DNA of 64,000 nt from Methanobacteriota archaeon (GTDB lineage Archaea > Halobacteriota > Methanomicrobia > Methanomicrobiales > Methanoculleaceae): NCBI GenBank assembly GCA_016841955.1, contig JAENYE010000007.1:1-64000 (forward strand). Direction: 5' to 3'. Below the pieces are notes generated by a model that was not told where the DNA came from, did not search any database, and worked only from the letters and a program-made list of their open reading frames with translations. Of the stretch, positions 4,184 through 53,990 are shown piece after piece (the stretch's first letter is position 1; the number at the start of each line of letters is the position of its first letter). The position numbers were made by a program, and so were the translations under genes.

Positions 4184-4337
4184 TGGGGTCGGTGAGATTT
4201 GAACTCACGATCGACGGGTCTCTCCGAACATGCATCAGTGCTCCAACGGGTCATCATCTCTCAATCAGGAGACCCATTGTTCATCACGTGCAAAGACCGC
4301 TGGAGCCCGTCGCCATTCCGGACTAGGCCACGACCCC
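4184..4337 (-). tRNA. tRNA-Trp (CCA) with 80-nt intron
   Basis: Read on the minus strand: acceptor GGGGTCG (4337-4331) pairs with CGACCCC (4191-4185), discriminator A at 4184. The D-arm is GCC...GGC, the anticodon stem ACGGG/CCCGT, the T-arm GTGAG-TTCAAAT-CTCAC. The 5' exon ends CTCCAG, giving anticodon CCA, so tRNA-Trp. The 3' exon resumes at A38 (4219). The intron (4220-4299) sits at the canonical 37/38 site. A long intron in tRNA-Trp that hosts a box C/D guide RNA is known in euryarchaea, and this one shows the same layout. Confidence 0.95.
4220..4299 (-). ncRNA. Box C/D guide sRNA inside the tRNA-Trp intron
   Basis: In minus-strand order the intron has box C GTGATGA (4287-4281), box D' CTGA (4268-4265), box C' ATGATGA (4257-4251) and box D CTGA (4238-4235). 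The D' guide TGGGTCTC pairs with GAGACCC across the 3' splice site; the fifth base from D' faces C39. The D guide GTTGGAGC pairs with GCTCCAGC across the anticodon; the fifth base from D faces C34. This is the Cm34/Nm39 arrangement known for archaeal pre-tRNA-Trp, here with C rather than U at position 39. Confidence 0.92.
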
Positions 4338-48770: not shown

Positions 48771-49028
48771 GGCTCACCGCTCTGTATGGTTGCGACCGGG
48801 AGAGTCGCTCTCCGGGGACTCACCCCGAACCAACATCCGGTACGCCGTCTGTGCATATCACCGTTCTGGGTGCCCGGGAACGGGATCGGCTGCCGTTACC
48901 TGAGCCCGTACTACAATCGGGGCTTCAACGTGGGAGGAATCCGGCAGCGATGCAATCTCTCTCCGCCTGAGAGGCAAAAGGATCGTATGGTTTAAATACA
49001 ATAGATCTAGAAGGTGTTTAGGTACTCG
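48771..49028. promoter_or_regulatory. Divergent intergenic with TATA for the hexapeptide ORF
   Basis: TTTAAATACA (48991-49000) is a TATA-like element ~30-35 nt before ATG 49029. The rest shows nothing else. Confidence 0.4.
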
Positions 49029-49148
49029 ATGATTGACAACGATTTAGAGTCCTACCATTGCACGCACGTGCAGAACTGCACCCTCGTGCTGAACCGCACG
49101 TCAGTGCGGAACTGCGCCTTTGCGCAGAACGCATTCTTCTTTAGATAG
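49029..49148 (+). CDS. Small repeat ORF (39 residues) with hexapeptide periodicity
   Basis: ATG 49029 with AGGT 7 nt upstream. The frame reads MIDNDLESYH, then six-residue units CTHVQN, CTLVLN, RTSVRN, CAFAQN, then AFFFR and TAG. Each unit is encoded by one 18-nt DNA unit that is also a hairpin. The peptide pattern (C/R)(T/A)x(V/A)xN resembles short repeat proteins, but it is too short for a fold. It precedes a symporter operon, so a leader-peptide function is conceivable. Confidence 0.45.
   Translation: MIDNDLESYHCTHVQNCTLVLNRTSVRNCAFAQNAFFFR
49060..49131 (+). repeat. Tandem array of four 18-nt hairpin units
   Basis: Four exact 18-nt units: 49060-49077, 49078-49095, 49096-49113, 49114-49131. 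Each is stem GCRC, four variable bases, stem GYGC, then a linker (A/T/G)GAAC(T/C/G). Unit 4 has GCGC/GCGC where the others have GCAC/GTGC, a paired change that keeps the stem. Loop bases differ in all units. Confidence 0.8.
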
Positions 49149-49181
49149 GGAACCGGCCCTTTTGCTGAGTTCCCGTGTAAT

Positions 49182-49200
49182 GTAACGGTTTTCCCGTTAC
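49182..49200 (+). promoter_or_regulatory. Hairpin between the repeat ORF and the symporter genes
   Basis: GTAACGG (49182-49188), loop TTTTC, CCGTTAC (49194-49200): a perfect 7-bp stem 16 nt before the accessory gene's ATG. It could be a terminator for the repeat ORF or part of a leader-RNA switch. Confidence 0.4.
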
Positions 49201-49216
49201 CGCCAGGTGGTTTGTT

Positions 49217-49345
49217 ATGTTTGGAATTGATGATCCTTCGATCTTGGTTGGATATCTGCTTGCGCTCGGATTTACGCTCGCATGCCTAGTGTACGGCCTG
49301 TTGAACTGGAATAACGGCGTGGAGGAGCAACGGGATGGCAGTTGA
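49217..49345 (+). CDS. Symporter small accessory protein
   Basis: A 42-residue protein with one membrane segment (PSILVGYLLALGFTLACLVY) and the start MFGIDD. Such short single-span proteins are known as symporter small accessory proteins directly upstream of SSS-family symporters. Its 3' end overlaps the symporter ATG by 11 nt; the last codons (VEEQRDGS) carry the symporter's ribosome site GGAGGAG. A pair by context. Confidence 0.8.
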   Translation: MFGIDDPSILVGYLLALGFTLACLVYGLLNWNNGVEEQRDGS

Positions 49346-50912
49346 TACAGGGCTCTTCGTCGCAATAACGCTGGCGTATCTCGTCATTATCATCGGCCTC
49401 GGCTATCTCGGCTACCGCCAGACAAAAGAGAACGACGATTATATGGTCGCCGGCAGGAAGATCCATCCCGTAATTCTTGCCCTCTCCTATGGAGCGACGT
49501 TCATCAGCACGTCCGCCATCGTCGGTTTCGGCGGGGTTGCGGCGCAGCTCGGCATGGGACTGATCTGGCTGACCGTCCTGAACATCGGGCTTGGTATTCT
49601 CATCGCATTCGTCGTCTTCGGAAAACGAACCCGCAAGATCGGGAGTCAGCTCCGTGCCGTGACCTTTCCCGACCTGATGGGGAAGTGCTACGGGTCGTCG
49701 TTCATGCAGTATGCCGCAGGGCTCGTCATCGTCGTCGGCATGCCGCTGTATACGGCGGCGATCCTGATCGGCGGAGCCCAGTTCATCACGAGCACGCTGC
49801 AGATCCCGTATAACACCTCGCTCATCGCGTTCGCCGCGATCGTCGCCCTCTACGTGGTGCTGGGTGGACTCATCGCCGTCATGTACACCGACGCGCTGCA
49901 GGGGGGGATCATGCTCGTCGGGATGACCATCCTTCTTGCGCTCACCTACATCAAGCTCGGGGGCATTGTTGAAGCAAACACCGCCCTTGCCGGGATGTCG
50001 GACCTCGTCCCGCAGGCGCTCGCCGCCGGGGGGATGACCGGGTGGGCTTCCATGCCGGCACTCGGATCGCCCATCTGGCTCACGCTGGTGACGACGCTCG
50101 TTCTCGGGGTGGGCATCGGGGTGCTGGCGCAGCCTCAACTCGTGGTCCGGTTCATGACCGTCAAGGACACCCGATCGCTGAACCGTGCGGTCCTCGTCGG
50201 CGGACCGTTCATCCTGATGATGACCGGGGTCGCCTTCACGGTCGGCGCGCTCACCAACGTATACTTCTACCAGACCCAGGGAGTGATTGCCCTGCAGGCG
50301 GCCACCGAGGGCAACGTCGACACGATCATACCGAATTTCATCAACGCGTCGATGCCGGACCTCTTCGTCGTCGTCTTCATGCTGGCGCTCCTTGCCGCTG
50401 CGATGTCCACGCTCAGTTCCCTCTTCCATACCATGGGAACGTCTCTCGGGTTCGACGTCGTGCGGCGCACCGGTTCCGAGAAAGCGTCGATGAGGCCGAT
50501 CCGGGTGGCGACCGTCGTCATGATCGCCATAAGCGTCGTCCTTGCCTTCATCATGCCCGGCAGCATCATCGCCCGGGCGACGGCGATGTTCATGGGCCTC
50601 TGTGCATCCGCGTTCCTGCCGACCTACGCCCATGCCATGTACAGCAGCAGGCCATCGCTCCGCGCTGCAAAGATGAGCCTGATCGCCGGAGCGGTCGCCT
50701 GGTTCGCATGGACCGCCTTCGTCCACATCAAAGAGTCGGAAGCACTCGGCCTCTCCGACTTCCTCTTCGGGGTTCCGGCGGTCCTTCCCATGCCGTGGCA
50801 GGTCGTGGACCCTCTCGTCATTGCCCTCCCCCTCTCGGCGGCTGCACTGCTGGTCGGGTGGGTGCTCGACCGCTATGGGGTGCCCGTGGAGAAAGGGGCC
50901 GAGGCTGCCTGA
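49335..50912 (+). CDS. Sodium:solute symporter (SSS family)
   Basis: A 525-residue transporter with about 13 membrane segments. ITLAYLVIIIGLGYLGYRQT, YGATFISTSAIVGFGGVAAQ and SRPSLRAAKMS regions match SSS/PutP-PanF permeases, and LAQPQLVVRFMTVKDTRSLN is the usual later block. Solute unknown. Start ATG 49335 follows GGAGGAGCAACGGG. It is coupled to the small accessory gene. A 9-bp hairpin after its stop (50941-50963) may end the transcript. Confidence 0.85.
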   Translation: MAVDTGLFVAITLAYLVIIIGLGYLGYRQTKENDDYMVAGRKIHPVILALSYGATFISTSAIVGFGGVAAQLGMGLIWLTVLNIGLGILIAFVVFGKRTRKIGSQLRAVTFPDLMGKCYGSSFMQYAAGLVIVVGMPLYTAAILIGGAQFITSTLQIPYNTSLIAFAAIVALYVVLGGLIAVMYTDALQGGIMLVGMTILLALTYIKLGGIVEANTALAGMSDLVPQALAAGGMTGWASMPALGSPIWLTLVTTLVLGVGIGVLAQPQLVVRFMTVKDTRSLNRAVLVGGPFILMMTGVAFTVGALTNVYFYQTQGVIALQAATEGNVDTIIPNFINASMPDLFVVVFMLALLAAAMSTLSSLFHTMGTSLGFDVVRRTGSEKASMRPIRVATVVMIAISVVLAFIMPGSIIARATAMFMGLCASAFLPTYAHAMYSSRPSLRAAKMSLIAGAVAWFAWTAFVHIKESEALGLSDFLFGVPAVLPMPWQVVDPLVIALPLSAAALLVGWVLDRYGVPVEKGAEAA

Positions 50913-51443: not shown

Positions 51444-53990
51444 ATGAGTGGAAAGGAAGGCCGGTATACCCGGATCCGGGAATTTCTTCAGGACCGGTAT
51501 CCCGAGGCGGTTTCAATCTCCACAATCTCGCGGACTTTGAAGATGAACCGCGGTTCCGTGGCCAAATATCTCGAGGTCCTCCAGTCTCACGGCCATGTAG
51601 TCATGAAACCCTTTGGCAAGGCCAAATTATATTCGTCGGCTCAAAATGTCCCGTTCGATGATCTCTTCGACTATCTTTCCGATGCGATCGTCATCCTCGA
51701 CGCGGACCTTCATATCCTCATGGTGAATAAAAGTTTCATCGATACCTTCAACATTCATTCCGGAAGGAACATCCTCGGCAGCGAAATGTCCCGGATACAT
51801 CTGGCGCTCTTTGATAACCCCATAATCTGGGAAAATATTAACCGGATCCTGAGTTCCCAGACCTTCATCAACGAGATGCTGCTGATCGAGCGTGGGACTG
51901 AACGGATATTTCTCATGGAATTCATCTCCACGGTTATACCTTCCATCTCGTTTACCGGAAAACCGGGAATCATGCTAAGCCTCCGCGACATCACCATGTG
52001 GAAGAAAACCGAAGAGGCGTTGAAAAACAGCGAACGTAAGATTCGCACCCTTTTCGAGGAAGTCCCGAGCGGCATCTTCCTCTTCCAGGAAGACGGGACC
52101 ATCCTGAATGCAAACCGGGCTTCGCTCGAGATCCTCGGGCTCGCGAGGTTCACCGACCTTGCAGATTTCAAGCTCTATGACATCATGTGTTCCCGGGAGA
52201 TTGTCCAGGACCTGATCAGGAAAGGGAAGATCGCTGAATTGACTCTGTCATGCAATTTTGACCGGCTGAAATCGGAGACGCTTACGTCGACCAAAAAATC
52301 AGGCGTCGCGTATTTTCAGGTTGTGTTTGCACCGGTCACCGATAAAGGGGGAAAAGCGCCCCGTGAATTTTTTATTCTCTTCCTCGATATCACGGCAAAG
52401 AAAATTGCCGAGAAACAGCTGAAAGAGCGATACCAGGGGATAATGAGCAACCTTCCGGGGATCATTTACCAGTTCTATGCCCGCGATTCCGGAGAATGGG
52501 GAGTTTATTACGTCAATGAACGCTCGCAGGAGATCTATGGGGTAACGACCGAGCCGCTGGATACCTGGTTTGCGAGGTACGGCGCATGCATCGCTCCGGA
52601 AGATCAGGAACGCTGGTTCGAATCGATCAACGATGTGATCCGGAGGGTTGCACCATGGGAGTTCGAGGGACGATTCCTGAAACCCACCGGGGAGGAGATG
52701 TACATCCGGGGAGTCTCGCAGCCGGTGCGTCTGAAGAACGAGACGGTCTGGAACGGGATATTCCTGGATATTACCGACCGGAGGAAAGCGGAGGAGGCAC
52801 TGCGCATGAGCGAAGAGCGGCTCCGGGGTATTACCAGTAACCTTCCGGGGATCGTCTACCAGTTCTATGCCCGCGACTCCGGCACATGGGGTATGTACTA
52901 CGTCGATGACCGTTCCACTGAAGTCTATGGTCTCCCCCCTGACCCCCTGGATACCTGGTTTGAGAGGTACGGCGCATGCATCGCTCCGGAGGACCGGGAA
53001 CGCTGGGTCAGATCGATAGAGGACACGATACAGAGAGTTGCACCCTGGGAGTTCGAGGGGAAATTTATCAAGCCGACCGGAGAGGAGATGTTCATCCGGG
53101 TACTCTCACAACCCGTCCGGCTGAAGAACGAGACGGTCTGGAATGGGATCATCCTCGATATCACCGACCGGAAGAGAGCGGAGGAGGCACTGCGCATGAG
53201 CGAAGAGCGGCTCCGGGGTATCACCAGTAACCTTCCGGGGATCGTCTACCAGTTCTATGCCCGCGGCTCCGGCACATGGGGTATGTACTACGTCGATGAC
53301 CGTTCCACCGAAGTCTATGGTCTCCTCCCTGACCCCCTGGATACCTGGATCCAGCGCTACGGTTCCTGTATCGCTCCGGAGGACCGGGAACGCTGGGTCA
53401 GATCGATAGAGGACGCGATACAGAGAGTTGCACCCTGGGAGTTCGAGGGGAAATTTATCAAGCCGACCGGAGAGGAGATGTTCATCCGGGTACTCTCACA
53501 ACCCGTCCGGCTGAAGAACGAGACGGTCTGGAATGGGATCATCCTCGACATCACCGACCGGAAGAGGGCGGAGGAGGCGCTTAGCAGGACCGAATTGAAG
53601 GAGGTCCGGTATCACTCGTTCTTTGAGAACACCTGCAACGGCGTATTGATCTATGAGCCGGTCGGGCAGGGAGAGGAGTACATCATCAAAGACGTCAACA
53701 GGGTAACAGCAGCCCTCCTGCGGATGAATAAAGAAGATCTCGTCGGGAAGAAACTCTTCGAGGAATTCCCCGATCTCCCGAACCCGTACGTGCACGATCT
53801 CCTGTATCGCGTTCTGACCACCGAAAAGCCGGAGTTCGTTACGCCGCTCAAATACCGGAACCGCGAGGACTTTCCCTGGATCTCCCATTATGTCTTCAAA
53901 CTTCCTTCCGGGGAGATCGCGTCGTTCATGATCGACGTCACCGAAGCAGTGATCGAGGACACAGACCCAGGATCAGAGGCCGGCGCGTAG
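51444..53990 (+). CDS. PAS-domain sensor with N-terminal winged helix and tandem PAS units
   Basis: An 848-residue protein without a kinase domain. The first ~65 residues form a winged helix (EFLQDRYPEAVSISTISRTL, then GSVAKYLEVLQSHG), followed by PAS domains from ~70 and ~200. Three 130-residue PAS-PAC units then follow (LPGIVYQFYARDSGTWGMYY, DTWFERYGACIAPEDRERWV, WEFEGKFIKPTGEEMFIRVL), and a last PAS near 720-840. Units 2 and 3 are almost identical DNA, so the duplication is recent. TTTTATTTAA (51408-51417) is its TATA; ATG 51444 fits that. It probably senses a signal and regulates transcription by its own winged helix. Confidence 0.85.
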   Translation: MSGKEGRYTRIREFLQDRYPEAVSISTISRTLKMNRGSVAKYLEVLQSHGHVVMKPFGKAKLYSSAQNVPFDDLFDYLSDAIVILDADLHILMVNKSFIDTFNIHSGRNILGSEMSRIHLALFDNPIIWENINRILSSQTFINEMLLIERGTERIFLMEFISTVIPSISFTGKPGIMLSLRDITMWKKTEEALKNSERKIRTLFEEVPSGIFLFQEDGTILNANRASLEILGLARFTDLADFKLYDIMCSREIVQDLIRKGKIAELTLSCNFDRLKSETLTSTKKSGVAYFQVVFAPVTDKGGKAPREFFILFLDITAKKIAEKQLKERYQGIMSNLPGIIYQFYARDSGEWGVYYVNERSQEIYGVTTEPLDTWFARYGACIAPEDQERWFESINDVIRRVAPWEFEGRFLKPTGEEMYIRGVSQPVRLKNETVWNGIFLDITDRRKAEEALRMSEERLRGITSNLPGIVYQFYARDSGTWGMYYVDDRSTEVYGLPPDPLDTWFERYGACIAPEDRERWVRSIEDTIQRVAPWEFEGKFIKPTGEEMFIRVLSQPVRLKNETVWNGIILDITDRKRAEEALRMSEERLRGITSNLPGIVYQFYARGSGTWGMYYVDDRSTEVYGLLPDPLDTWIQRYGSCIAPEDRERWVRSIEDAIQRVAPWEFEGKFIKPTGEEMFIRVLSQPVRLKNETVWNGIILDITDRKRAEEALSRTELKEVRYHSFFENTCNGVLIYEPVGQGEEYIIKDVNRVTAALLRMNKEDLVGKKLFEEFPDLPNPYVHDLLYRVLTTEKPEFVTPLKYRNREDFPWISHYVFKLPSGEIASFMIDVTEAVIEDTDPGSEAGA
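52411..53580 (+). repeat. Three tandem 390-bp units in the PAS gene
   Basis: Units at about 52411-52800, 52801-53190 and 53191-53580, each exactly 390 bp (130 codons). The second and third differ at only a small number of bases; the first is more diverged. The unit boundaries fall between PAC linkers, so the frame is kept. Confidence 0.85.

Follow-up and report, generated by a model that had tools for sequence, protein, structure and literature searches.

A predicted phenylalanine leader-peptide attenuator conserved across an archaeal order of methane producers

Ribosome-mediated amino-acid attenuation through leader peptides is classical in bacteria, and the Phe leader attenuators of E. coli are pheL of pheA and pheM of pheST. 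The arrest peptides SpeFL and TnaC carry fixed residues just before the stop codon, and the tail of SpeFL is Phe-rich and ends in Arg-stop. T-box leaders bind tRNA directly and need no ORF. Among the titles and abstracts of the open-access literature we found no report of leader-peptide attenuation in archaea, which is not proof of priority. We have analyzed a locus in a 64,000 nt stretch of archaeal DNA (hereafter the window), upstream of a sodium:solute symporter gene, for which the initial annotation knew no named class. The locus instead resembles the known class of amino-acid leader-peptide attenuators. On comparative sequence grounds it is quite probably a ribosome-mediated phenylalanine attenuator.

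The features of the locus are as follows.

48991 to 48998, + strand: TATA-like promoter element (TTTAAATA), read in the sequence; most relatives have a TATA-like box about equally far upstream of the start of the leader.
49019 to 49022, + strand: AGGT, probable Shine-Dalgarno (SD) sequence of the leader ORF; the homologous GGTA in other genera pairs in helix P1.
49029 to 49148, + strand: leader ORF, 39 codons plus TAG; a homologous leader ORF is present at 142 of 146 loci of the order.
49059 to 49130, + strand: four tandem 18-nt hairpin/hexapeptide units (the array), an expansion specific to the genus within the body of the leader ORF.
49131 to 49148, + strand: Phe tail and stop, GCA TTC TTC TTT AGA TAG (A F F F R stop).
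49148 to 49174, + strand: hairpin P2, GGGAAC (49148-49153) with GTTCCC (49169-49174), whose first base is also the final base of the stop.
49182 to 49200, + strand: hairpin P3, GTAACGG with CCGTTAC, directly before the SD; found by folding and local to the window genus and near relatives.
49205 to 49210, + strand: SD (AGGTGG) of the symporter accessory gene, read in the sequence.
49217 to 49345, + strand: symporter small accessory protein (NF045580, 60.4 bits against a cut-off of 35).
49335 to 50912, + strand: SSF sodium:solute symporter, the probable target of control (PF00474, E 6.1e-50).

The leader peptide of the window is MIDNDLESYHCTHVQNCTLVLNRTSVRNCAFAQNAFFFR, followed by the stop. Its ATG at 49029 and the TTTAAATA element at 48991 bear out the claim of the initial annotation that the element has its own start and TATA box, and the reported distance of 68 nt to the accessory gene, which starts at 49217, is also correct. 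We rejected the idea that ribosomes read through the TAG as far as the accessory gene; the distance between them is not a multiple of 3 and is variable. The sequence of the symporter matches generic SSF proteins only. Downstream of the operon, a gene for a PAS-domain protein (52449-53578) contains 2.9 near-identical 390-nt repeats (88% match), which are recently duplicated PAS domains. Elsewhere in the window, a tRNA gene on the minus strand (4184-4337) has a long intron containing a match to a box C/D RNA (sR3), an arrangement that we take to resemble that of archaeal tRNA-Trp introns.

The four array units occupy 49059-49076, 49077-49094, 49095-49112 and 49113-49130, a spacing of exactly 18 nt, and read in order TGCACGCACGTGCAGAAC, TGCACCCTCGTGCTGAAC, CGCACGTCAGTGCGGAAC and TGCGCCTTTGCGCAGAAC. 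All lie in frame within the leader ORF. Tandem Repeats Finder (TRF) reports a period of 18 with 4.0 copies, 71% match and a score of 58. The array RNA (80 nt) folds at -34.9 kcal/mol (z -3.6 against dinucleotide shuffles), and the fold of the whole leader ORF has z -4.0 against synonymous recodings of the same peptide. These coordinates, the TRF result and the fold z confirm the four 18-nt hairpin units in an ORF that had been described. In the minimum free energy structure units 1 and 2 join in a single longer hairpin, and units 3 and 4 each fold alone. Unit 4 was said to alter both stem strands with pairing kept, and it does so by an A-T to G-C change; unit 3 likewise carries a T-A to C-G change, and both paired changes are non-synonymous.

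The array is the least conserved part of the locus. Versions with one unit or with two to four are confined to the window genus and its nearest relatives: within the genus the leader body holds 1 (for example MIGNDLESYHCTQVQSAFFFR), 2, 3 or 4 units, and the nearest genus has one (CTDVQN). In other genera the leader bodies are unrelated to the array and to each other. A comparison with relatives had been proposed for the array, and it yielded both 1-4 units and paired stem variants (TGCAC/GTGCA, CGCAC/GTGCG and TGCGC/GCGCA), but in many species the last unit has an A-C mismatch (TGCAC/GCGCA), and the hairpins are therefore not strictly kept. Some relatives have a 15-nt unit. By sequence comparison, the array is a recent, lineage-specific and frame-keeping expansion in a variable leader body, and its probable role is that of a spacer that is tolerated, or of additional structure, and not that of the sensor. 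Whether it is a chance microsatellite with no role at all, a reading that is silent on the leader carrying it, seems to us evenly balanced. The variation from 1 to 4 units inside one genus, the single unit in near relatives and the tolerated A-C mismatches favour such an origin, whereas the units always keep the frame and the structure in four-unit species exceeds that of synonymous controls (z -4.0 and -2.5). The initial annotation had considered both RNA and protein explanations for the array, and the element does look like a translated ORF, an RNA and a leader all at once, but the functional signal lies 3' of the array.

The accessory gene, as defined by NF045580, is present in 147 of 232 genomes of the order, and the upstream DNA of 146 loci was read. 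The 142 loci with the leader ORF in the same place represent about 31 genera. The other four comprise two assembly gaps, one lost stop and one locus, in genome G061, that truly lacks the leader. The leader ORF has a median length of 24 codons (range 19-43). Its reading frame is open in all 142, against 33 and 7 for the other two frames, and the first ATG after the GGTA is in the leader frame in 99 of 103 cases. Genomes without the symporter gene have no leader, unless they carry it at one of the other target genes. The same leader was not seen at the symporter loci of Methanosarcinales-like families, Methanomassiliicoccales or Methanocella. In the Methanosarcina-like families (loci L152-L162) a different conserved region, TTCGAAACATTAAAGTATGG...GTTAACA, lies upstream of the accessory gene, and is possibly another promoter or a regulator site. 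Locus L051 (genome G064) is the sole intact locus with an altered leader stop (TTTAGTTGG); its tail ends in another frame, in CTT TAG, and the frame may have shifted or the copy may be decaying.

The conserved portion of the leader peptide is its tail, with a mean of 4.9 Phe in the last 12 codons. Among 136 distinct peptides, the last ten positions hold 608 Phe; the corresponding counts are 73 for Val, 42 for Leu, 34 for Ile, 15 for Tyr and 1 for Trp. All 136 have Phe at residue -2, and 127 have it at residue -4; Phe also occupies residue -6 in 82 and residue -5 in 79, where Ala is found in 46. At the last residue (-1), 116 peptides have Arg, 11 have Ser and 7 have Asn, and the final Arg codons interchange between AGR and CGN. 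T makes up 58-62% of the first and second codon positions of the tail, while the third is 47% C and 31% T. Because T dominates positions 1 and 2 but not 3, the selection is for Phe codons and not for U-richness. Codon -2 is an exception: it is TTT in 135 of 136, although TTC dominates at -4, and this near-invariance points to a constraint at the RNA level there.

A covariance model built from the tail and P2 was run on the order's 232 genomes as well as on the remainder of the phylum. It located the element in 145 of the 232 genomes, almost always at the symporter operon, and gave one marginal match only in the rest of the phylum. Additional copies of the leader occur upstream of pheS, the gene for the alpha subunit of phenylalanyl-tRNA synthetase, in 8 genomes of two genera (L210, L216, L218, L219, L237, L244, L246 and L247). 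The three pheS proteins tested matched NF003210 at 590-601 bits (cut-off 350), and in L210 the next gene is pheT, for the beta subunit, by its match to TIGR00471. Nine further loci (L206-L209, L211-L214 and L217) have the leader upstream of LivK-type amino-acid-binding proteins, identified by PF13458 in the six of these loci whose proteins were scanned, and one copy (L215) precedes a pterin-4a-carbinolamine dehydratase (Pterin_4a). The tails of these additional copies end alike, as in MSVMVCKRNTDTIQVTDTFFFFFR, MSASPSPCYGNSMIVDFFCFFR and MSTIGSFSPFFSCSFFSFR. The pheS gene of the window genus is without such a leader and is preceded by a gene that reads by eye like trpS.

Several of these loci have further short or decayed reading frames. 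In L206-L209 the Phe leader is separated from the LivK-type gene by a second ORF, MCK(I/M)F..., which is also conserved, is about 42 codons long and corresponds in position to the accessory gene of the symporter operon, and the pheS operons likewise have a short ORF between leader and pheS. At about 280-430 of L220 (genome G193) there is a second, decayed leader copy that has lost its stop (AGGAAGG) and precedes a divergent accessory-like gene whose NF045580 match falls below the cut-off. Simpler pattern searches were of little use: a strict P2 pattern proved too narrow, with 2 matches, and a looser pattern of tail plus hairpin returned only the window locus and a few scattered one-mismatch matches. 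A search for an analogous Trp leader by a pattern of TGG runs gave no leader in the 12 loci that were inspected by eye, and matches to the control pattern were more frequent.

The second conserved component is the hairpin P2, which starts on the G of the stop codon, 54-102 nt upstream of the accessory gene, and folds in nearly every relative. In 67 aligned sequences 6 of its 7 pairs are changed on both sides; cells with such double changes number 43, where shuffles give 8.7, and the covariation score is 0.320, compared with 0.163. Its flanks, UUUAGnUAG and UGUAnnG, are conserved. Outside the window genus the GGTA near the leader start pairs with a TACC just before the downstream SD, forming helix P1. 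A first test of P1 with free register gave a weak signal, GGTA and TACC being common to all genera. In a fixed-register permutation at the level of genera, the result was clear outside the window genus: the P1 flanks covary between genera, with 3.16 Watson-Crick pairs of 6 against 2.15, and 0 of 2000 permutations were as good. P1 was not seen in the window genus, where the local hairpin P3 precedes the SD. Overall, the predicted folds of leader ORFs are more stable than those of codon-permuted controls (mean of genus z -1.6). When the stretch covered by a ribosome was masked in the folds, so as to find the sign of the regulation, the mean unpaired fraction of the SD was 0.35 for the free leader, 0.40 with a ribosome at the stop and 0.38 with one at the Phe codons, a small and inconsistent shift. 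A search for an intrinsic terminator between P2 and the gene found a T run of 5 or more in only 25 of 142 loci, and a U run thus follows P2 too rarely to support termination of transcription as in bacteria. Rfam gave no match at gathering score for the locus; the best chance match (E 3.2) was to an unrelated lncRNA.

The locus combines a short ORF with its own ribosome binding site (RBS), a cluster of codons for one amino acid, and target genes for that same amino acid, by way of pheS and pheT (family models on those tested) and the amino-acid-type binding proteins. A Phe-codon leader before genes for Phe-tRNA synthetase and for amino-acid uptake is the signature of amino-acid attenuation. In the mechanism that we propose, ribosomes would translate the leader ORF at the 5' terminus of the operon mRNA, and when Phe-tRNA(Phe) is scarce they would slow or stall on the Phe codons. 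We strongly infer Phe-tRNA to be the signal in this sensing step. The stalled ribosome would cause the leader to refold, involving an internal stem, P2 and P1, with P3 in place of P1 in the window genus, and the refolding would presumably raise the expression of the downstream SSF symporter, LivK-type binding proteins or Phe-tRNA synthetase. The output would probably be translational rather than transcriptional: control at the downstream RBS, closed by P1 or P3, is likelier than termination of transcription. It is probable, with slightly less assurance than for the locus itself, that the order has an archaeal leader-peptide Phe regulon (symporter, LivK-type and pheST genes) of this translational form, with base pairing between the leader RBS and the sequence ahead of the downstream RBS and with a hairpin placed on the stop codon of the leader.

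The leader might instead be a nascent-chain arrest peptide like SpeFL or TnaC, its C-terminal F-x-F-R stalling the ribosome at the stop when a small molecule, Phe or the transported solute, is present, so that the stalled ribosome melts P2. The residues at -2 (136/136), -4 (127/136) and -1 (Arg in 116/136, 85%) are as fixed as such a peptide would have them, P2 on the stop codon could be opened only by a ribosome at or near the stop, and in leaders of 19-43 aa the tail stays in the exit tunnel. There are however no conserved upstream sensor residues, the bodies being unrelated between genera; residues -3, -5, -6 and -7 are also often Phe, which resembles codon counting, and the pheST target suits control by tRNA charging. 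We consider this reading unlikely. It is less likely still that the element is a structured RNA or riboswitch with an incidental ORF: although P1 and P2 show covariation, the folds of leader ORFs are more stable than those of permuted controls and the P2 flanks are conserved, the frame survives many length changes, the final Arg codons interchange and position 3 is free in the Phe tail. Least probable of all is a functional small protein acting in trans, which the conserved ORF with its own promoter and SD would allow, but conservation is limited to the last few residues with no family match, the ORF keeps its place relative to the hairpin and the downstream gene, unrelated genes are preceded by the same tail, and action at a distance is unlikely because the tail of a leader of 19-43 codons stays within the ribosome.

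The rarity of T runs between P2 and the gene, the small and inconsistent predicted opening of the downstream RBS and the lack of P1 in the window genus weigh against the attenuator interpretation. So do the strict Phe at -2 and its TTT codon, which exceed the needs of plain codon sensing and hint at an added role of the RNA or the nascent chain. The UGUAnnG after P2 is conserved along with TTT at codon -2, and together the two motifs suggest a contact at the RNA level that lies beyond any of the explanations offered here.

If the proposed mechanism is correct, a single regulon would link Phe uptake with tRNA charging in this order of major methane producers, and phenylalanine or a close precursor would be the probable substrate of this SSF symporter family with a small accessory protein. 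The element makes a textbook mechanism of bacteria directly testable in archaea, and provides a handle on archaeal transcription-translation coupling.

With pheL and pheM the element shares a short leader ORF, Phe codons clustered near the stop and a hairpin thereafter, before pheST or Phe-related genes. Unlike them, it has no terminator U-tract, its P2 starts on the stop codon, its leader RBS pairs over a long range with the sequence before the downstream RBS, a symporter operon is its chief target, and no Rfam family matches it. Fixed residues right before the stop are found also in SpeFL and TnaC, and the Phe-rich tail with Arg-stop is common to SpeFL and the archaeal leader; the latter, however, lacks a conserved N-terminal sensor motif and its targets are phenylalanine genes. 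As in the translational attenuators of erm leaders, the output predicted as likeliest is control by way of the structure surrounding the downstream RBS, but the signal would be tRNA charging and not an antibiotic. T-box leaders similarly place aminoacyl-tRNA synthetase and transporter genes under tRNA-charging control, whereas the archaeal element has an ORF and gives no T-box match. Though it differs in domain of life, in having no terminator and in RNA architecture, the element belongs in kind with the bacterial amino-acid leader attenuators.
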